This document shows, piece by piece, positions 4,252-13,928 of a DNA stretch of 14,161 nucleotides. Made by a program: the position numbers and the translations under genes. Source of the DNA: Candidatus Hydrogenedentota bacterium (lineage in GTDB: Bacteria; Hydrogenedentota; Hydrogenedentia; Hydrogenedentales; JAGMZX01); assembly GCA_029556545.1 (NCBI GenBank), contig JAKQEQ010000174.1, positions 1-14,161 of the forward strand, given 5' to 3'. Below the pieces are notes generated by a model. The model saw only the letters and a program-made list of their open reading frames with translations, was not told the DNA's origin and made no database searches. Position 1 is the first letter of the stretch; the number at the start of each line of letters is the position of its first letter.

Positions 4252-5751
4252 TCAGGGGTTTCCCAGACAGAAACCGTCTTCGGTGCCTTGGCCGGGGCAG
4301 GCATGAAACGCGCCGACGTTGTAGAACTGGATGATGCGGAGCAGTTCCGTCAACGCAATTTGCCAATCCGGCCCGGCGGGGGCGTAATCCGCGTCGTGAG
4401 GCGGACAGGACGCATCGCCGGGACCGGGCGCATAGCCGTCTTCGCCGGTCGCGTCGCAATGAAGCCCGCCGGAATTGTAGAACTGGATGATCCGCAACAA
4501 TTCCGTGAGGTTGATGCGATTGTCGCCGTTCTGGTCCGCGCTGTGGCGCGGCAGCGGCGGTTCCCCTTCGCCTTCGCCCTCGCCGGGGTTACACTCCGCC
4601 GCGCCGAACACGACGTCTACGCCGCCCGCCTCGAGTTCCGCCGCCTGCTCCGCCAACGTCTCGCCGCCGGTCAGGATATCGCACAGCCAAAGCTCGATCA
4701 GCGAGTCCAGATCGAACACGGGCAGTACGGTGGTCAGCGGGTTGCCGGACACGTCAAGTCGCAGCAGGGCATCGAGCGTCTCGACGCCGGAGAGACTCGG
4801 GATCAGGTTGTACGAGATGTCGAGGTATTCGAGGGCGGTGAGCCCACCCACCGGGCCGAGCGCCGTGACCTGGCAACTGGCCAAGTCGAGATCGCGCAGC
4901 GCCGTGAGCCCCGCGAGCGGCGTCAGGTCGCTGAAGAAGTTCACGGAGAGATTAAGCCGTTCGAGCCCGGTCAGGCCGCTCAATGGGGCGAGGTCCGTGA
5001 TCTGGTTGTCATAGAGAAAGAGCTGCGTCAGGTTGGCGAGGCCGGACAACGGCCCCAAGTTGCTGAGGGTGTTGCTGTTCAGGCCGAGGATTTCGAGGGC
5101 GGACAACGCCGCAAGGGGCGTCAGGTCGACCACGTTGTTGCCATCGAGCAAGAGTTCGCGCAGGCCGGTTAATCCGCTCAGCGGGCCGACGTCGGGCAGT
5201 TGATTATCTTGCAGATGCAGGGTTTCGAGGTTGGTCAGGCCGACAAGCGGCGAGATATTGCTGATCTGATTGCCGGCGAGGCCGAGCCACGTGAGATTGA
5301 TCAATCCGGACAGCGGCGCAATGTCCGAAATGGCGTTGCGCCAGATGCCGAGGTGATACAGCGCGGCGAGCCCCGCCAGCGGCGTCACGTCGGTCACCCC
5401 CGAATTCACGATTTGGAGGTACGTGAGGTTTGACAGTCCCGCGAGCGGCGTCAGGTCGGAAAGTTGACAGTCCTGCACGTCGAAGGCCTCGAGGCCCGTG
5501 CAGTACTCGAGGCCCGTCAAGTCCGTTATGACGCCATGCAAGTCGACATCATGGTAAAGGCTGGTAATGGTTGCGAGGGCGCTGTCCTCGAGGTCCCCCG
5601 AGGGCTGGCCGAGCGCCTCGCGAAGATGCGATTCGAGGGCCGCGTCGGGAATCTCGACCGCCGCCGCCGAGGCGGCCCCGGCGCAGAGCAGAAGCAACAA
5701 GCACAACAGGGTTGAACGGGACCGCCGACTCGGATCGGGCAGGGTACACAT
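4252..5751 (-). CDS. Secreted leucine-rich-repeat protein with GEGE linker and two EF-hand-like terminal repeats
   Basis: This is a 499-residue putative exported protein. The N-terminus carries basic residues, a Leu-rich core (LLCLLLLLCAG) and an AASAAA cleavage region, a clear Sec signal peptide. A short helical cap (IPDAALESHLREALGQ) follows, as in internalin-like proteins. Then come about eleven clean 22-residue leucine-rich repeats of the type TPLAGLxxLxxLxLxxNxISDL, and two degenerate ones. A GEGEGEGE linker leads to HSADQNGDNRINLTELLRII and QFYNSGGLHC. The second terminal copy, with LTELLRIIQFYN, ends FHACPGQGTEDGFCLGNP. The DxNxDxxINLxEL pattern looks like a calcium-binding dockerin or EF-hand loop, but the second copy has lost most acidic ligands. 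The DNA of the two copies is also a visible direct repeat (around 4320-4350 and 4476-4506). The likely role is extracellular protein or surface binding. The anchoring function of the tail is unknown. Confidence 0.88.
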   Translation of the reverse strand: MCTLPDPSRRSRSTLLCLLLLLCAGAASAAAVEIPDAALESHLREALGQPSGDLEDSALATITSLYHDVDLHGVITDLTGLEYCTGLEAFDVQDCQLSDLTPLAGLSNLTYLQIVNSGVTDVTPLAGLAALYHLGIWRNAISDIAPLSGLINLTWLGLAGNQISNISPLVGLTNLETLHLQDNQLPDVGPLSGLTGLRELLLDGNNVVDLTPLAALSALEILGLNSNTLSNLGPLSGLANLTQLFLYDNQITDLAPLSGLTGLERLNLSVNFFSDLTPLAGLTALRDLDLASCQVTALGPVGGLTALEYLDISYNLIPSLSGVETLDALLRLDVSGNPLTTVLPVFDLDSLIELWLCDILTGGETLAEQAAELEAGGVDVVFGAAECNPGEGEGEGEPPLPRHSADQNGDNRINLTELLRIIQFYNSGGLHCDATGEDGYAPGPGDASCPPHDADYAPAGPDWQIALTELLRIIQFYNVGAFHACPGQGTEDGFCLGNP

Positions 5752-6664: not shown

Positions 6665-7714
6665 ATGAACGAAGCGCGACTGGTCATCGGCATGCCCGCG
6701 GGCTCGCTGGCGGACCCGAATCGGGGCGGCAACCTCATCGCCCTGCTCAAGCACGCGGGATTTCCGACCAAGGGCTACGACGCGGGCGGGCCGACCTCGT
6801 TTCCGCTGCACGCGATGCTCGTCGGCTGGGACGGACGCCCCCAGGAGTTCGGCGCGCAACTCGGCCTCGGCGAGGTCGATATCGCCATCGGCGGCGACGA
6901 CTGGGTCCGCGAGCGGGTTCTCGAATTCAAGTTCGAGTACGGGCGGGATCTGCGCCTCGAGAAGGTGCTGTCGCTCCACCGCGGCGGCGTGCGCATCGTC
7001 ATCATCTACGATCGGCGCGACCCGGCGGAGTCATTCGACGCCTGGTTCGCGGCGTTGCTCCGCGCCAAGCCGCTGGTAAGCATGGTCTCCGAAATGCCGT
7101 ACCTCGCCCTCGAATGGTATCTCAAGAAGGTCGAGGCGCTCGGGTTCGGCAAGTCGCACGCGGCGTATTCCGTGCAGAAGTTCAAGACGCCACCGCGCAT
7201 TCAAGAGGGACTCGTGATCTACGAGACCTGGGGCAAGACCGAGGCGAAAGTGAAGCACGCTGCGGTCGATTTCGGCCTCGAAATCACCCAGAGCGGCAGC
7301 GCCATCCGCAATTACGGCCTCGAAATCGGCGAGGTCATTATGGAGTCCGAGACCGGCATCTGGGCGAACCCGGCCGTGCGCGACAACCCCGAGAAATACG
7401 AACTGGCGCGGTTGTTCCTGCTGAATCTCTACGGGTCCGTCTTCGCTGAGAACAAGGTGTTGATCCTCTTCAACGCGAAGAATGAGGCGACGCCGGGCAT
7501 CCTCGAATACCTCAGTGCGAACAAATTGTTCGGCGATGAGCCCACCATGAACGCCGGCGCGAAATTCACCGAGTTCAGCGTGCAGATGGACGCGGACAAC
7601 CCCGCGCTCCCCCTGGCGAAGGTGCGCTACGACCTCGCACGCCTCGGCGCAACCCACATCGAAACAGTGCCTCTCGATTCCTCGATCCCCGGCCTGGACG
7701 CCATCGCGTTCTAA
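6665..7714 (+). CDS. HisG-like protein (ATP phosphoribosyltransferase family, divergent)
   Basis: This 349-residue cytoplasmic protein has the two-lobed HisG layout. HisG condenses ATP and PRPP in the first step of histidine synthesis. The strand-loop PAGSL (11-15) stands where HisG has PKGRL, so both basic residues are replaced. GEVDIAIGGDDWVRE (69-83) corresponds to the family's G-x-DLGITGxDxxxE. ITQSGS-x-x-RNYGLEIGEV (about 207-222) aligns with the PRPP loop E/TGxTLxxNGL, again altered. ESETGIWANP matches the SxARLIANP strand. The C-terminal 80 residues (PLAKVRYDLARLGATHIETV) resemble the ACT-like regulatory domain of long-form HisG. It is about 50 residues longer than usual HisG, and no other his genes are nearby. 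It could be a paralogue with another substrate or a divergent but true HisG. It follows the membrane-protein gene by 9 bases. Confidence 0.72.
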   Translation: MNEARLVIGMPAGSLADPNRGGNLIALLKHAGFPTKGYDAGGPTSFPLHAMLVGWDGRPQEFGAQLGLGEVDIAIGGDDWVRERVLEFKFEYGRDLRLEKVLSLHRGGVRIVIIYDRRDPAESFDAWFAALLRAKPLVSMVSEMPYLALEWYLKKVEALGFGKSHAAYSVQKFKTPPRIQEGLVIYETWGKTEAKVKHAAVDFGLEITQSGSAIRNYGLEIGEVIMESETGIWANPAVRDNPEKYELARLFLLNLYGSVFAENKVLILFNAKNEATPGILEYLSANKLFGDEPTMNAGAKFTEFSVQMDADNPALPLAKVRYDLARLGATHIETVPLDSSIPGLDAIAF

Positions 7715-7727
7715 GGAGCCACCCTGG

Positions 7728-8675
7728 CTACGGAGCCGGGTCGAGAACGCAGCCGGTCTGCGCGATTCCGGACAAGATAACGCTGTATCCTCCTCCCCCG
7801 AGCACGGCCATCGGACCGTAGTCCCGACCGAGCAAGAACATCGCGATCTCGCCCAGTTCCTCGTGATTGAACACGAGTCCGATCGCGTCGGGACTTGGCA
7901 TGACATCGAGCGATACGCCGTAGATTTGGGCCGCCGCGCGCACTGCGTTCCCCGTGAGGATCGTAAACGACTCGCTGCCCCAGTATTCCGGGACAAACGA
8001 CTCGCCGGATACGAGTCGTTCCGGAAGAAGATGCTGCATCTTGCCCGTGGCCGAGGGTAACCGGTAAAGGTCCTTCACGGAGGACGTGGCGTAGAGCCAC
8101 CCCTGGATCAAGACGTAGTACGCAACGGACTGGTAGTGCGTCCATCCGTCCATTCGACTGGTGGATTCCCAGACGGGGCAGCCGTTCATCTCGAAGCCCT
8201 CGGTAATGTGCTCCACCGTGTAAGCATCAATTGCGTTCAGCCATACCCAGAAATTCCCTGTGGCCAAGGGCCAGTAATCGCACAGCCAGACGCCCGGCGG
8301 CTCTCCTTCGTCCTCGCTTTCACCTTCTCCTTCCCCGATCATCTCCTCTTCTCCTTCCGCGCTTTCGCCCTCCCCTTCACCCTCTCCGTCCGTCGGTCCG
8401 CCTTCGGGCAGACCCGCGCCGCTCGCCCCTTCCCCTTCGCCTTCCGCAGACGGTATTCCCTCGTCGAGATTATCGCCTTCCGGCGCGCTATCCGGATACT
8501 CCGGCGGCTCACCCGTCGCGTCATCCGGCAGGGGGGTGACGTTGTCCGGATCGCCGTTATCCTCGGGCGGCCGCGATGAAGGCGACCAGGGACACGCGCC
8601 CAGCACCAAGGCGCAAACCAATAGCGTGAATAATCCCCCCTGACCGCAAGCCCGCTTGAGCCGCGCGTGTTTCAT
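7728..8675 (-). CDS. Putative lipoprotein with acidic GEGE-rich region
   Basis: This 315-residue exported protein of unknown function starts with a basic stretch and a hydrophobic core (LFTLLVCALVLGAC). Cys28 sits in a lipobox (LGAC), so I predict a lipid-anchored envelope protein. Residues about 30-130 are low complexity and very acidic (Pro, Asp, Glu, Gly) with repeated GEGEGEGE and EGEGES tracts, probably an extended spacer. The C-terminal ~185 residues start at WLCDYWPLATGNFWVW and look globular. A segment of the type PLATGNxWVW is often seen in secreted proteins from uncultured bacteria, but I cannot assign a function. The start ATG at 8675 follows GGGGGG by 7 bases. It converges on the HisG-like gene with only 13 bases between stops and is driven by the strong promoter at 8774-8801. 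Confidence 0.82.
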   Translation of the reverse strand: MKHARLKRACGQGGLFTLLVCALVLGACPWSPSSRPPEDNGDPDNVTPLPDDATGEPPEYPDSAPEGDNLDEGIPSAEGEGEGASGAGLPEGGPTDGEGEGEGESAEGEEEMIGEGEGESEDEGEPPGVWLCDYWPLATGNFWVWLNAIDAYTVEHITEGFEMNGCPVWESTSRMDGWTHYQSVAYYVLIQGWLYATSSVKDLYRLPSATGKMQHLLPERLVSGESFVPEYWGSESFTILTGNAVRAAAQIYGVSLDVMPSPDAIGLVFNHEELGEIAMFLLGRDYGPMAVLGGGGYSVILSGIAQTGCVLDPAP

Positions 8676-8931: not shown

Positions 8932-9291
8932 ATGAATCTCGCTGAAGTGGCAGAGCGCATCGGGGCGCGCATCCTGAACCCCGAGCGCGCGCGCGAAGTG
9001 GACGTGGACCGCGTCCATGCGGGGGACCGCATGAGCGATCTGCTGAGCCACGTGTCGGATACGACGCTGCTGGTGACGCATATCGCGAACCACGGCCTCG
9101 TGCGCCTTATCGAACTCATGGATGCGCCGGGCATCTGCCTCGTGAACGGGGCCGCGCCGGACCAGCTCGTCGAGGAAGCCGCGCGGCGCTGCGGCACGGT
9201 GCTGCTGGTGTCGCCCGCGAGCCTGTTCGAGACGTGCGGGCGGCTGCACCGCTGTCTCGGGGCCGGAGGGGAAGGGGCCGCCGCCCGATGA
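8932..9291 (+). CDS. DRTGG domain-containing protein (first copy)
   Basis: This 119-residue protein is a stand-alone DRTGG-type domain, a small alpha/beta fold found next to CBS domains and in hydrogenase-linked operons, thought to bind a ligand or partner. Visible family features are MNLAEVAERIGARIL at the N-terminus, DRMSDLLSHV (family GxxxSDLLSxV), TTLLVTHIANHGLV, a central GICLVNG strand and a final SLFETCGRLH helix. It is clearly homologous to the product of 10852-11205 but diverged, and its C-terminus ends in a Gly/Ala-rich tail. It is the first gene of a five-gene unit. Its TGA overlaps the ATG of the next gene by 4 bases, implying translational coupling. The ribosome binding site is weak (GGGGA). 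The function is inferred only from context: a sensory or scaffold subunit of a redox signalling set. Confidence 0.8.
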   Translation: MNLAEVAERIGARILNPERAREVDVDRVHAGDRMSDLLSHVSDTTLLVTHIANHGLVRLIELMDAPGICLVNGAAPDQLVEEAARRCGTVLLVSPASLFETCGRLHRCLGAGGEGAAAR

Positions 9292-10862
9292 CCGCCGCCA
9301 CCTACCCGATCATCAGCGGGGACTACGAACGGGGCGGCGAGGCGTCCAAGCAACTCAAGACCTTGCTCAAGAAGATCGGGGCGGACGCCGCCGCGGTGCG
9401 CCGCACGATGATCGCGGCGTATGAGGCCGAGATGAACGTGGTCATCCACGCGCAAGACGGCGCGATGCACGTGGCGGTGGACCCGGAGCAGGTCGAGATC
9501 GCCGTTATCGACGGCGGGCCGGGCATCCCGAATATCGACCGCGCGCTTTCGGAGGGGTTTTCGACCGCGCCGGCGGAGGCCCGCGAATTGGGCTTCGGCG
9601 CGGGCATGGGCCTGCCCAATATCCGCAGGAACAGCGACCGCTTCTCGATCCACTCGGGCGAAGGCCGGGGCACGCAGTTGCGGTTTATGGTGCGCCTGCG
9701 GCCCGCCGCGCCCGGCGTGACGGCGCCGAATTCCGTCGCGATTCAAGACGGGCGTTGCAACCAATGCCTGCGGTGCCTCCACGCCTGCCCGACGCAGGCG
9801 ACGCGTGTGCGCGGCGGGAAGCCGCTGATCCTCGAACATTTGTGCGTGGACTGCACGGCCTGCGCCGAGGCGTGTCCCTCGAACGTGTTCGGATTCCCCG
9901 GCCAGACCGCGCTGCCCGAGATTTCGCCGGAGACCGTGTTGGTGCTTCCGGCCTCGTTACTGGGCCAACTGGGGCCGGGCGTAAGCTTCGCGGACGTCGA
10001 GCAGGCGCTCGCGGAGCTCGGGTTCCGCAACGTGCGTGTCAGCGCCGCGTGGGAAAACGCACTGGCCGAGGCCGTGCGTACGCATGCCGCGGACGCCGCG
10101 GCCGCAGGGCCGGTGCTTTCGCCGGTGTGTCCGGCGGTCGTCAATCTGGTTCGCCTGCGGTTTCCTTCGCTGCTGCCGCAAGTGGCCCCGTTTCTGACGC
10201 CCATCGAGGCCGCGCGCGACGAGATCACCGGGCCGCACGCCGTCTTCGTCGCGCCTTGTTCCGCGCAGTATACGGCCCTCGCCGCTCCGAACGGTTTGAC
10301 GCGGACCGACGTGCTCGCGCCCGCGGCGATCATGCCCGCCTTGTTGCCGCGCGTGAAGCGGCGCGCGCATCCGCCCGCGGCCGCCGAGGACGCGACCGTC
10401 ACGCCGCTCCGCATTGGCGGCATGGACTCGGTGACCCGCTTTCTCGAAGACGTCGAGAACGGGCAGGCGACGGATTGCCGTGTCGTCGAGTTGTACGCCT
10501 GTCCCGAGGGGTGTTTCGGTGCGCCGATCTGGAAAACGCACCCGGCGCTGGCGCGCGCGCGCGCCGAGGCCGCTTTGGACGGACACGAAGAAACCGGCGC
10601 CGCCGTCCGCCGCATTCGTGACCTGACGCCGCGCGGCGGCTTGCGCCTGGATGCGGACATGGGGCGCGCCATGCTAAAACTGGGGGAAATCGACCGGTTG
10701 ACGCGCACGTTGCCGGGCCGCGACTGCGGCGTGTGCGGCGCGCCGACCTGCGCTGCACTGGCGGAAGACACCGTGCGCGGCGAGACCGCCGTCGAGGCGT
10801 GCCCGTATCGGGAAATGGAAGACGCGGGGAACAAGCGGAGGGAGTCGCTGCATGAATCTTAA
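9288..10862 (+). CDS. Fusion of RsbW-like HATPase, 2x[4Fe-4S] ferredoxin, [FeFe]-hydrogenase-like domain and Fe-S domain
   Basis: This 524-residue cytoplasmic protein has four modules. Residues 1-140 are an anti-sigma/serine kinase-type HATPase: N-box EAEMN50, G1 DGGPGI (75-80), G2 GFGAGMGLPN (102-111), then GT (128-129). Residues 155-200 hold two ferredoxin motifs, C157/C160/C163/C167-Pro and C186/C189/C192/C196-Pro. Residues 215-420 resemble the [FeFe]-hydrogenase large-subunit C-terminal domain. SPVCP (Cys281), APCSAQ (Cys324) and CPEGC (Cys405, Cys409) match the four ligands of the H-cluster 4Fe-4S unit. The proton-relay Cys (TSCCP) and the conserved Lys (MPCxxK) are replaced by Val and Gln. 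Residues 474-507 (GRDCGVCGAPTC, then EACP) are a 4Fe-4S domain as in RnfB and CO-dehydrogenase-linked proteins. I chose ATG 9288 because of GGAGGGGAAGGGG upstream, the family-like N-terminus and the ATGA overlap. I infer a redox-sensing kinase, not a hydrogen-converting enzyme. Confidence 0.87.
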   Translation: MTAATYPIISGDYERGGEASKQLKTLLKKIGADAAAVRRTMIAAYEAEMNVVIHAQDGAMHVAVDPEQVEIAVIDGGPGIPNIDRALSEGFSTAPAEARELGFGAGMGLPNIRRNSDRFSIHSGEGRGTQLRFMVRLRPAAPGVTAPNSVAIQDGRCNQCLRCLHACPTQATRVRGGKPLILEHLCVDCTACAEACPSNVFGFPGQTALPEISPETVLVLPASLLGQLGPGVSFADVEQALAELGFRNVRVSAAWENALAEAVRTHAADAAAAGPVLSPVCPAVVNLVRLRFPSLLPQVAPFLTPIEAARDEITGPHAVFVAPCSAQYTALAAPNGLTRTDVLAPAAIMPALLPRVKRRAHPPAAAEDATVTPLRIGGMDSVTRFLEDVENGQATDCRVVELYACPEGCFGAPIWKTHPALARARAEAALDGHEETGAAVRRIRDLTPRGGLRLDADMGRAMLKLGEIDRLTRTLPGRDCGVCGAPTCAALAEDTVRGETAVEACPYREMEDAGNKRRESLHES

Positions 10863-11205
10863 GGAAGTCATGGATAAACTGGGTCTGGAACTGCTGACGC
10901 CGGAGTTGCCGCCGGACCCGGCGCGCGAGGTCGCGGGGGCCTACGTGTCGGACCTGTTGAGCGACGTGTTGGCGCATGGGCCCGAGGACGGGCTGCTGGT
11001 CACGGTGCAAGTGCACATGAACGTCGTCGCGGTGTCGGTGCACGCGGGACTGGCCGGCGTCATCTTCGCGATGGGGCGGCGGCCCGAGGACAGCGTGCGC
11101 GCGAAGGCCGTCGAGGAAGGCGTGACGCTATTCGCGTCGAACGAATCCGCGTTCGACGTCGTCGGGCGTCTCTACGCACTCGGCCTGCGAGGAAGCCGTG
11201 CGTGA
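10852..11205 (+). CDS. DRTGG domain-containing protein (second copy)
   Basis: This 117-residue DRTGG-type protein is closer to the family norm than the first copy. It shows MNLKEVMDKLGLELLTPE, then GAYVSDLLSDV, LLVTVQVHMNVVAVSV, GVIFAMGRRPE and ESAFDVVGRLYALG. It is paralogous to 8932-9291, sharing the MNLxEV start, SDLLSxV, LLVT and the GRL end. In hydrogenase-linked operons of other anaerobes such small proteins sit beside HATPase and PHP genes, and their biochemical role is not established. The start ATG lies 11 bases inside the end of the preceding gene, preceded by GGAGG. Its TGA overlaps the GTG of the PHP gene as GTGA, so translation of the three is probably coupled. The pair of paralogues brackets the HATPase/Fe-S gene, suggesting two subunits of one complex. 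Confidence 0.85.
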   Translation: MNLKEVMDKLGLELLTPELPPDPAREVAGAYVSDLLSDVLAHGPEDGLLVTVQVHMNVVAVSVHAGLAGVIFAMGRRPEDSVRAKAVEEGVTLFASNESAFDVVGRLYALGLRGSRA

Positions 11206-11948
11206 AACGGTTCGCCGCGGATTTGCACGTCCACACCGCGCTCTCGCCCTGCGCGGATGACGCCCTGACCCCGCCCGCCGTCGTGCTCGCGGCCATGGAC
11301 GCGGGGCTCGACCTGATCGCGATTTGCGACCACAACACGGCGGGCAACGCCGCCGCCGTGCAGGAGGTTGCGGACGGGCCGGGCGAGGGCCGCGTCGCCG
11401 TGATTCCCGGCATCGAGATCACGACGGCGGAAGAAGTCCACGTCGTGGCGTTGTTTCCGGATACCGCGACGGCCGCCGCGGCCGCTGCGGCCGTGCTGGC
11501 GGGGTTGCCGTCTTACGAAGCGGGCGCGCGGCGCTTGGGCCGTCAGTTGCTGATGAACGGCGACGGGGACATCGTGGGCGAAGAATCGAAGATGCTCTCC
11601 GCGGCGTCGCTGTTTCCCTTGGCGCAGGCGGTGGCGTATGTGCATCGGTGCGGCGGACTGGCGATTGCCGCGCACGTGGACCGCCCCTCCTTTTCCGTAT
11701 GCGGGCAATTGGGTTTCTTCCCGCCGGACGTGCGCTTTGACGCGATCGAGATTTCCGCCGCGGGCCATGACCAGGGTCGAGACGCCGAGTTCCGCGTGCT
11801 CGGGCTGCCGCTGATCTTCGCATCCGACAGCCACAGCCTGGACGAGATCGGCGCGACGCGGTCCTATTTCGAGTTGGAAGCGCCGGACTTTCACGGGCTC
11901 GCGCGCGCGCTTCGGAACGCGGGCGGGAGGACCTACGGCATTGCGTGA
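11202..11948 (+). CDS. PHP-domain metal-dependent phosphoesterase
   Basis: This 248-residue protein is a polymerase-and-histidinol-phosphatase (PHP) domain, a TIM-like barrel with a tri-metal site that hydrolyses phosphoesters. The metal-binding residues are visible in order: DLHVHT (Asp7, His9, His11), CDHN (Asp43, His44), PGIEITT (Glu72), EVHVV (His80), AAHVDRPSF (His158, Asp160) and SDSH (Asp209, His211). All canonical positions look intact, so it should be catalytic; the substrate is unknown. CADD and FSVCGQLGFFP are also typical of the hydrogenase-cluster PHP branch. It starts at GTG 11202, overlapping the previous stop, and its end overlaps the start of the next gene by 8 bases. In this setting it may hydrolyse a nucleotide or phosphoprotein signal made or read by the flanking kinases, which is inference. 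Confidence 0.9.
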   Translation: MKRFAADLHVHTALSPCADDALTPPAVVLAAMDAGLDLIAICDHNTAGNAAAVQEVADGPGEGRVAVIPGIEITTAEEVHVVALFPDTATAAAAAAAVLAGLPSYEAGARRLGRQLLMNGDGDIVGEESKMLSAASLFPLAQAVAYVHRCGGLAIAAHVDRPSFSVCGQLGFFPPDVRFDAIEISAAGHDQGRDAEFRVLGLPLIFASDSHSLDEIGATRSYFELEAPDFHGLARALRNAGGRTYGIA

Positions 11949-12480
11949 ACTCTCGCTGCACATCCTCGACCTCATGGAGAACGCCACGCGCGCCGGGGCC
12001 ACCGTGGTGTACGTCGGCATCACCGAGAACGTCGCGCAAGACACCCTCGAGATCGTCGTCGAGGACAACGGGCCCGGACTGCCCGCTTCGTCCGACGCGG
12101 CGCTGGACCCGTTCTACACCACCAAGGAAGGCAAGAAGACCGGGCTCGGCTTAAGCTTGTTCCGCGCCGCCGCCGAGCAGGCCGGCGGATCGATGACCGT
12201 CGAGCGGGCGACGTTGGGCGGCGTCGCCGTGCGCGCCGTGATGCAGTTGCGCCACGTGGACCGCGCGCCGTTGGGCGACTTGGCGGAGACGTTCCGCACG
12301 CTGGTGCTCACGCATCCCGAGATTGACTTCTGCTGCCACGTACGAAGCGACGGCGGCGAAACCCTCGTGCGGGTCCTCGACATCATCCTCGAACTCGGGA
12401 CCGACGCCGCGGACGAGTTCGCGGTCGCGCGGATCGTCACCGAGCGCGTGCGCGCGGCGATCGCGCCCCTGCGCGCATAG
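11941..12480 (+). CDS. HATPase (histidine-kinase-like ATP-binding) protein without phosphoacceptor domain
   Basis: This 179-residue protein consists of a GHKL ATPase domain and a short extra alpha/beta tail. The N-box is DLMENATRAGA (Asn14), G1 is EDNGPGLP (41-48), the F/G2 region is DPFYTTKEGKKTGLGLSL, and AAEQAGGSMTVERATLGG completes the lid. There is no HisKA/DHp helix with an H-box, no membrane segment and no sensor domain. It must therefore phosphorylate a partner in trans, or only bind ATP. The C-terminal part (PLGDLAETFRTLVLTHPEID, then FCCHVRSDG) is not a known receiver or output domain. The TTG start at 11941 fits the family (MRELSLHILDLxEN), has GGGAGG 10 bases upstream and overlaps the PHP stop by 8 bases. 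It is the last gene of the five-gene unit and the second HATPase in it. Confidence 0.87.
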   Translation: MRELSLHILDLMENATRAGATVVYVGITENVAQDTLEIVVEDNGPGLPASSDAALDPFYTTKEGKKTGLGLSLFRAAAEQAGGSMTVERATLGGVAVRAVMQLRHVDRAPLGDLAETFRTLVLTHPEIDFCCHVRSDGGETLVRVLDIILELGTDAADEFAVARIVTERVRAAIAPLRA

Positions 12481-12638: not shown

Positions 12639-13928
12639 ATGGAATCCGTCGAGACACAGGATAGTCCCGAACTCTCGGTCATCATCCCGAGCATGAATGA
12701 GGCGCTCAACCTCCGGCTGTTGCTGCCCGCGCTGAAGGAAACGCTGGACGCGATAGGCCCGCGCTACGAGGTGCTGGTCGTGGACAAGGACTCGCCGGAC
12801 GGCACGGAGCAGGTGGTCGTCGAAGCGGGCGCGCGCTACATTTGCGAGACGACGCCGGGATACGGCGCGGCGCTGCTCCGGGGCGTGCGCGAGGCGCGGG
12901 GCGAGTACCTGATCACGATGGACGCCGACTTGTCGCACCCGGCGCAGTTCATCCGGGATTTGTGGGCGGCGCGGGACCGGGCGGACGTGCTGATCGCGTC
13001 GCGCTACGTCCCCGGCGGGAACGCGGACCAGCCGCTCGGGCGCTATCTGCTCAGCCGGGTCCTGAACGCTTTTTTCCGCATCGGGCTGTCGCTGAACGCG
13101 CGCGACCTGTCCAGCGGGTTTCGCCTCTATCACCGGCGCGTCTTCCGCGATATCCGGCCCTTGCACACGAATTTCGTGATCCTGGTCGAGATTCTGATCG
13201 AGGCGCTGCGCCGCGGACGCCGCTTCGCGGAGGTCCCGTTCCACTATCAGCCGCGCGGCCAGGGCCGGTCCCACGCGCAAGTGGTCCAGTTCGGCAAGGA
13301 CTACCTGCGCCTGTTCTTCCGGATGTGGCGCGCGCGCAACTCGATTGATTTTCCCGACTACGACTGGCGCGCCCATGACAGCCGCATCCCGCTGCAGCGC
13401 TACTGGCAGCGCCGCCGCCACGCGCTGGTGCTCGGATTCGTCCCGCCCGGTGCGGCCACGCTCGACGTCGGCTGCGGCAGTTCGCGGATCATGGCCGACC
13501 TGCCCCACGCGGTCGGCGTCGATCTCCGGCATGAGAGACTGTGCTTCATGAAGGCCACGAACCGCCTGCTCGCGCGGGCGGACGGCCTCGCGCTTCCCAT
13601 CGGCGACGCCGCCTTCGACTGCGTTATCTGTTCCCAGGTCATCGAGCACGTCCCCGATGAGAATGGCCGCTTGCTCGACGAGCTCACGCGCGTGCTCCGG
13701 CCCGGCGGCACGCTGGTCATCGGCACGCCGGACTACGGCAATTGGCAGTGGCGGCTCACCGAGCGGCTTTACCGAATCGCCGCGCCGGGCGCGTACGCGG
13801 ACGAGCACGTCACGCACTACACCTTCGATTCGCTCACCGCCGCGTTGCGCGCGCGCGGGCATGAAATTCTCGACCACGCCTATATTCTCAAGGGCGAACT
13901 CATCATCAAGGCGCGCAAACGGACCTGA
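12639..13928 (+). CDS. Glycosyltransferase family 2 - SAM-dependent methyltransferase fusion
   Basis: This is a 429-residue two-domain protein. Residues 10-235 are a GT-A fold family-2 glycosyltransferase of the dolichol/polyprenyl-phosphate mannosyltransferase type: LSVIIPSMNEALNL, VLVVDKDSPDGT, the metal/nucleotide motif MDADLSHP (Asp95, Asp97), IASRYVPGG, and LNARDLSSGFRLYHRR. These enzymes transfer a sugar from a nucleotide donor, often to a polyprenyl phosphate. Residues 255-425 are a class I methyltransferase: LDVGCGSS (motif I, 275-282), VGVDL, FDCVICSQVIEHV and LRPGGTLVIGTPDY. No transmembrane helices are visible, unlike many polyprenyl-phosphate glycosyltransferases. The ATG at 12639 is preceded only by a weak AAGG. 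It could make and methylate a surface glycan or glycolipid. It stands alone behind the REP pair and is probably not part of the upstream operon. Confidence 0.9.
   Translation: MESVETQDSPELSVIIPSMNEALNLRLLLPALKETLDAIGPRYEVLVVDKDSPDGTEQVVVEAGARYICETTPGYGAALLRGVREARGEYLITMDADLSHPAQFIRDLWAARDRADVLIASRYVPGGNADQPLGRYLLSRVLNAFFRIGLSLNARDLSSGFRLYHRRVFRDIRPLHTNFVILVEILIEALRRGRRFAEVPFHYQPRGQGRSHAQVVQFGKDYLRLFFRMWRARNSIDFPDYDWRAHDSRIPLQRYWQRRRHALVLGFVPPGAATLDVGCGSSRIMADLPHAVGVDLRHERLCFMKATNRLLARADGLALPIGDAAFDCVICSQVIEHVPDENGRLLDELTRVLRPGGTLVIGTPDYGNWQWRLTERLYRIAAPGAYADEHVTHYTFDSLTAALRARGHEILDHAYILKGELIIKARKRT

Follow-up and report, generated by a model that had tools for sequence, protein, structure and literature searches.

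Electron-bifurcating [FeFe] hydrogenases (HydABCD) have accessory genes beside their structural genes in several described bacteria. In Acetobacterium woodii (hydE), Caldanaerobacter subterraneus (tte0891) and Halanaerobium, the genes beside hydABCD encode a HATPase, a PHP protein, an Fe-S hydrogenase-like protein and an anti-sigma-type kinase (PMC3315566, PMC4694547, PMC4237134), and the Halanaerobium operon Halsa_1862-1871 lists all of the gene kinds considered here (PMC4237134). The HydE protein of A. woodii is absent from the active enzyme and was described as possibly "involved in assembly or signalling" (PMC3315566). A related comparison is with the group D "sensory" [FeFe] hydrogenases, which are placed with (upstream of) bifurcating hydrogenases (PMC3561251). 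One of these, TamHydS, has a bound H-cluster and shows slow turnover of H2, and the signal output of the group has been stated as an open question (PMC8163306). In the Hydrogenedentota, "group C1 [FeFe]-hydrogenases" have been reported that carry a HATPase_C domain and no recognisable P1-P3 motifs, with 21 of 53 beside group A3 genes (PMC11406978). Here, we describe a set of five overlapping genes (A to E) in a Candidatus Hydrogenedentota bacterium. They lie on contig JAKQEQ010000174.1 (C110 in our numbering), which we analyzed over its whole length of 14,161 bases (the window) and which belongs to a 6.1 Mb assembly, 96% complete (GCA_029556545.1, G000). The hydrogenases and other proteins of this genome agree with its place in the Hydrogenedentota.

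We consider it likely that the five genes are the regulatory and accessory block of electron-bifurcating HydABCD, moved from its place between rex and hydC, and that they encode a redox-controlled kinase/phosphoesterase regulator of HydBCD. The gene kinds and their order are those of the accessory genes of A. woodii, C. subterraneus and Halanaerobium. In those organisms the genes are contiguous with the structural genes, and the kinase and the sensor are separate proteins; here the set is relocated and the two are fused in protein B.

A contig scan with an alignment from the phylum gave 80 loci, spanning Bacillota, Bacteroidota, Planctomycetota, Actinomycetota, Chlorobiota, Chloroflexota, and others. 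At 55 of them, one or more hyd structural genes lie within 10 kb. The usual order is A-BN-BC-C-D-hydC-E-hydD-hydB-hydA, and the set and the structural genes are contiguous in a member of the Phycisphaerae (L059, A-B-C-D-E-hydC-hydD-hydB-hydA) and in an Actinomycetota genome (L060, rexA-B-C-D-E-hydC-hydD-hydB-hydA). This order recurs in unrelated phyla and is thus not due to chance, in agreement with an earlier proposal, in a preliminary description of the window, that the genes belong together. The genome that holds the window encodes hydA-hydB-hydD-hydC-rex, a complete electron-bifurcating [FeFe] hydrogenase operon, on contig C192. Its HydA is of group A6 (NF040763, 910 bits) and its HydD is thioredoxin-like (fdx-like). 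The rex gene is only 78 bases from hydC, so the five-gene block is what stands between these two genes elsewhere.

The window itself contains no hydrogenase structural genes, and the set is at least ~40 kb from the hyd operon even if C110 and C192 abut. The set is likewise unlinked from hyd genes in the second genome of the genus (G040), where an FHA-GGDEF protein is encoded upstream of gene A. The detachment noted in the preliminary description is therefore real. Because the set is on another contig and is unlinked in G040 too, we call it a relocated counterpart of the operon's accessory block and not a part of the operon. The preliminary description went further and suggested that the set may be autonomous, signalling redox state or hydrogen without depending on any hydrogenase. 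The unlinked sets of the window contig, G040, Parabacteroides distasonis and several Bacillota loci agree with this, as does G071, a 1.6 Mb metagenome-assembled genome (MAG) with neither a HydB nor a HydA match at 1e-30. Against it, HydA, HydB and HydC are all present and clustered in the window's own genome (where a second copy of the set, also looked for, was not found), and hyd genes directly adjoin the set in four relatives in the phylum. G009 has a complete divergent hydABDC-rex next to the set, G058 has HydA/HydB upstream, and G050 and G056 have HydC downstream. Such neighbors in close relatives had been named beforehand as the observation that would make this an ordinary hydrogenase accessory set, and they bear out the remark that related sets accompany bifurcating [FeFe] hydrogenases. 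Autonomy is thus largely refuted and we regard it as very improbable.

Co-occurrence with HydA was examined across a single phylum and across 14 scattered genomes with detached sets. B is present in 18 of the 68 phylum genomes, all 18 of which encode HydA; 24 of the 42 HydA-bearing genomes lack the set. B occurs in 15 of 17 genomes with a HydA at least 77% identical to that of the window's genome versus 3 of the 51 others (Fisher p 2e-10, not corrected for kinship). HydA is found elsewhere in 12 of the 14 genomes with detached sets. The other two of the 14 are G081, which has HydB at a contig edge, and G071, a small MAG that encodes other [FeFe] hydrogenases as well as HydF/HydG. The cultivated gut commensal P. 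distasonis has a detached set of six genes (76,069-79,840 of NZ_OY725779.1) and, ~60 kb away on the same record, a group A6 HydA (15,562-17,307).

B is predicted to consist of two halves. The AlphaFold model has a predicted local distance difference test score (pLDDT) of 85, and residues 1-139 match SpoIIAB (1til) with a Z score of 17.8 and a root-mean-square deviation (rmsd) of 2.2 over 133 aligned positions. Both the fold and the ATP-site residues (Glu46/Asn50, G1 and G2 boxes) are those of SpoIIAB/RsbW, and E46, N50, D75, G77, G79, G104, G106, and G108 are present in 100% of 96 kinase domains. By model, this half (~1-139) is a predicted SpoIIAB/RsbW-type GHKL kinase domain. Pfam matches in B are to HATPase_c_2 (40.7 bits), a Fer4 dicluster, FeS PF04060 (42.3 bits), and Fe_hyd_lg_C PF02906 (46.4 bits; cut-off 22.1). 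The last of these, the [FeFe]-hydrogenase H-domain, was missing from the domain list of the preliminary description. The kinase-like, Fe-S and PHP domains of that list hold, while its DRTGG label falls below the Pfam cut-off for A and C and is recovered for A at the level of the modelled fold. Kinase and sensor are separate adjacent genes at 74 of the 80 loci. The fusion occurs in the window's clade, which is one side of a branch with 100/100 support, and independently at L130.

The second half of B (~144-510) appears to derive from a hydrogenase. Residues ~136-449 match the [FeFe] hydrogenase CbA5H (8zqd; Z 24.6, rmsd 3.5, 292 aligned). It contains two Fer4 clusters (C157/160/163/167 and C186/189/192/196), a degenerate H-domain and a C-terminal Cx2Cx4Cx16C cluster (C480, C483, C488, and C505). 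The H-domain [4Fe-4S] ligands C281, C324, C405, and C409 are invariant in 96 sequences. When aligned to HydA by profile, three of these (C324, C405, and C409) coincide with cysteines of the HydA motifs; C281 lies one column off the TSCSP cysteine, and its exact pairing in motif L1 is tentative. The two N-terminal [4Fe-4S] motifs, the H-domain and the C-terminal motif are shared with the group D/M2e HydS proteins TamHydS, TTE0887 and Cthe_0335, as are R (mostly R175 too), E and D residues at the published spacing (PMC8163306, PMC13104023). B and these proteins also lack the group A proton-transfer cysteine. B differs from group D in its fused N-terminal SpoIIAB-type kinase, in an aromatic residue at the Met497 position, in the loss of the di-iron-site lysine, and in a gene that is unlinked from hydABCD in this genus.

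A lysine of the Lys358 type contacts the di-iron subsite. In the window this position is Gln, and it is Q, E, H, L, or M in 22 of 22 members of the window's clade; the lysine is kept in all 74 split forms and in L130. The Met497 position is Tyr or Phe in 22 of 22 clade members, and the C299 position is V in 16 of 22. Since the lysine is never kept in this clade, the di-iron site appears to have been lost there and the [4Fe-4S]H ligands to have stayed. For the same reason we call B group D-like and not a group D hydrogenase. With the di-iron site apparently lost, and judging from its residues, B of this clade probably responds to redox state and not to H2. The alternative, in which B genuinely senses H2 through a full H-cluster, as proposed for TamHydS, and signals to its fused kinase, would fit the conservation of all four [4Fe-4S]H cysteines, the H-cluster binding and slow H2 turnover of TamHydS (PMC8163306), and the occurrence of HydE and HydF in many relatives. 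We find it quite unlikely in view of the residues at the three positions in the clade, the lysine kept by all split forms, the 2024 survey that saw no P1-P3 motifs in "C1" proteins (PMC11406978), and the genus itself, where HydE, HydF, and HydG were not found by model searches of two 96%-complete assemblies. That absence may be a gap, because in two genus pairs (G001/G002 and G011/G012) hydEF is lacking from one assembly only. Both assemblies, G000 and G040, encode HydA and gave no match to the HydE and HydF models; in G000 the best HydG match is ThiH, and the H-cluster motifs of HydA are intact.

Proteins A and C are small DRTGG-like proteins. Their matches to DRTGG (PF07085; 17.6 bits for A and 16.2 bits for C) are below the cut-off of 25.2, which homologues at L061 (30.0 bits) and L085 (39.6 bits) exceed. 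Over the whole genome this model gave one unrelated sub-threshold match, and it is too insensitive for A and C. The AlphaFold model of A (pLDDT 91) matches a solved DRTGG structure (2ioj; Z 16.1, rmsd 2.4, 111 aligned). D32, S35, and G103 are invariant in 36 sequences of A, a candidate phospho-acceptor or effector. In C, D34, S37, and T51 are 100% conserved among 96 homologues, and the P. distasonis homologue is annotated as DRTGG. D matches PHP (26.1 bits, just under the cut-off of 26.4) and PHP_C (22.0 bits), and its metal-site residues D7, H9, H11, D43, H44, E72, H80, H158, D209, and H211 are conserved in 81 homologues. Its nearest solved sequences are a 5′-3′ exoribonuclease (7ug9) and PHP phosphoesterases. 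E matches HATPase_c (53.2 bits), with D10, N14, D42, G44, G46, G68, and G70 conserved in at least 99% of 68 homologues. Its homologues stand inside the order hydC-E-hydD elsewhere, and by gene position and domain E is the counterpart of A. woodii HydE and C. subterraneus Tte0891 (PMC3315566, PMC4694547).

Several natural fusions were found. In three Actinomycetota MAGs the C-terminus of Rex is fused to A, directly before a fused B (Table 1). L085 encodes a DRTGG(A)-kinase fusion with rex overlapping upstream, and G050 encodes an E-HydC fusion. Lone receiver-domain genes are directly upstream of A at four further loci. Together, these fusions and receiver neighbors tie Rex and A to the kinase and the sensor, and, separately, E to HydC.

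We propose that B may be a redox-responsive Ser/Thr kinase. Its hydrogenase-derived half, with four predicted [4Fe-4S] sites, would sense how far ferredoxin/NADH or the hydrogenase itself is reduced and would gate the SpoIIAB-type half. The kinase would then phosphorylate a small partner on serine, the best candidates being the DRTGG proteins A (S35) and C (S37), and the PHP protein D would reverse the phosphorylation or hydrolyze a signal. E, the second ATPase, may act at the HydC/HydD end of the hydrogenase. A would pass the state to Rex and/or the complex and in this way match bifurcation to the redox balance.

Several observations weigh against this regulatory reading. Gene content, order, genome-level association, fusions, and conserved residues can be read directly from the sequences compared; the kinase activity, substrate, and output of the set we infer from sequences and models. 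STAS domains are the known substrates of SpoIIAB, and DRTGG proteins are not STAS. No gene for a sigma factor or a STAS anti-anti-sigma protein turned up in a Pfam scan of the five-gene set, whose small partners are DRTGG-like, unlike those of SpoIIAB/RsbW. The nearest solved relatives of D act on nucleic acids or small phosphates and not on phosphoproteins. E has no phospho-acceptor domain. Recombinant C. subterraneus HydABCD, as (HydABCD)2, was active in Escherichia coli with only the E homologue (PMC4694547), and A-D are therefore not needed for basal activity. The same result speaks against the main rival, an assembly or maturation factor in which two chaperone-like GHKL ATPases load Fe-S clusters or FMN (flavin mononucleotide) into HydBCD, B carries clusters, and D and the DRTGG proteins assist. 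Assembly would suit the position of E among the structural genes and its fusion to HydC in G050, as well as the 16 conserved cysteines of B, and the A. woodii authors left both assembly and signalling possible for the counterpart of E (PMC3315566). We consider it unlikely, given also that more than half of the HydA-bearing phylum genomes do without the set and that linkage to Rex and receiver domains points to signalling.

The set is not always found with an [FeFe] hydrogenase. In a Chlorobiaceae MAG (L097) the set and hydC-hydD-hydB are located amid HdrA pieces and MvhD/VhuG/VhuA-type [NiFe] hydrogenase genes. The sole PF02906 match in this genome is the sensor itself; HydG has no match there, and none to HydF reaches the cut-off (provisional absences, as the genome is a MAG). 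The presence of HydBCD with no other [FeFe] hydrogenase is an argument for the HydBCD bifurcation module as the partner of the set, with no strict dependence on the [FeFe] enzyme. The B protein of L097 keeps the lysine even though no HydG was found, a further point against the regulatory reading. A role for B in H-cluster maturation was also considered and is weakened by this MAG. More tentatively, and with the odds against it, the regulatory reading could be extended. A former hydrogenase, its di-iron site lost, would have been turned into a [4Fe-4S] redox sensor for the anti-sigma-type serine kinase to which it is fused. With two DRTGG phospho-acceptors, a PHP phosphatase, and Rex, it would make up a partner-switching circuit, which would tune HydBCD-type bifurcation irrespective of the attached hydrogenase.

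Pieces of this system are already published. The "group C1" proteins of the 2024 survey are probably the same proteins as B; that survey does not describe the set of five genes, a likeness to SpoIIAB, the fusions, or how the proteins relate to group D (PMC11406978). A literature search for DRTGG with hydrogenase returned nothing on this system. In the papers searched we found no account of the set as one module, of the SpoIIAB identity with DRTGG/Rex fusions, of a di-iron-site loss in one clade, or of the Mvh/Hdr association, and these appear to be new.

Table 1. Positions of the five genes, their neighbors in the window, and related features on other contigs
Feature	Contig or locus	Position	Strand	Description
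Gene A	window	8932-9291	+	ORF (open reading frame), 119 aa; stand-alone DRTGG-fold protein (modelled)
Gene B	window	9288-10862	+	ORF, 524 aa from ATG 9288; predicted SpoIIAB/RsbW-type GHKL kinase + HydS-like [FeFe]-hydrogenase fusion
Gene C	window	10852-11205	+	ORF, 117 aa; second DRTGG-like protein
Gene D	window	11202-11948	+	ORF, 248 aa; PHP-family metallophosphoesterase
Gene E	window	11941-12480	+	ORF, 179 aa, TTG start; HATPase_c protein without DHp domain
Secreted repeat protein	window	4252-5751	-	
HisG-like protein	window	6665-7714	+	Stand-alone; PF01634, 48.9 bits
Signal-peptide protein	window	7728-8675	-	Putative lipoprotein
Glycosyltransferase-methyltransferase	window	12639-13928	+	Family 2 glycosyltransferase fused to methyltransferase domain (PF00535, PF08241)
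hydA-hydB-hydD-hydC-rex	C192	129,851-136,444 of 175,441		Hydrogenase operon of the same genome
FHA-GGDEF protein	L038 (G040)	11384-12430		Upstream of gene A
Rex-A fusion	L057	4944-6038		Actinomycetota MAG
Rex-A fusion	L058	1866-3038		Actinomycetota MAG
Rex-A fusion	L060	7768-8910		Actinomycetota MAG
Receiver-domain gene	L046	4496-4930		Directly upstream of A
Receiver-domain gene	L047	9113-9595		Directly upstream of A
Receiver-domain gene	L048	8151-8567		Directly upstream of A
Receiver-domain gene	L049	10606-11004		Directly upstream of A
Set with hydC-hydD-hydB	L097 (PNNN01000039.1)	8727-21563		Chlorobiaceae MAG

A check of the open reading frames confirmed the five genes in the stated order, with exact overlaps of 4, 11, 4, and 8 bases, and both flanking genes are as first described. 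No Rfam family was found in the window. The HisG-like protein scores 28.4 bits against TIGR00070, far below cut-off; it may be a phosphoribosyltransferase of another kind, or else a binding protein. The secreted repeat protein ends in two dockerin-like "NRINLTELLRIIQFYN" repeats, and both it and the putative lipoprotein contain a low-complexity GEGEGE stretch. The genome also encodes a separate H-domain/histidine-kinase protein on contig C55.

The natural fusions (kinase-HydS, DRTGG-kinase, Rex-DRTGG, and E-HydC) name the likely signalling partners and their order, which makes the question of group D output directly testable. Cultivated organisms that carry the set, such as P. distasonis, provide an experimental system. 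In one clade the di-iron lysine is gone, and this sets redox sensing apart from H2 sensing. The fusion of kinase and sensor suggests how group D-type sensors pass their signal on, and, if the partner-switching circuit is real, it would supply the output that has been lacking for the group D "sensory" hydrogenases.

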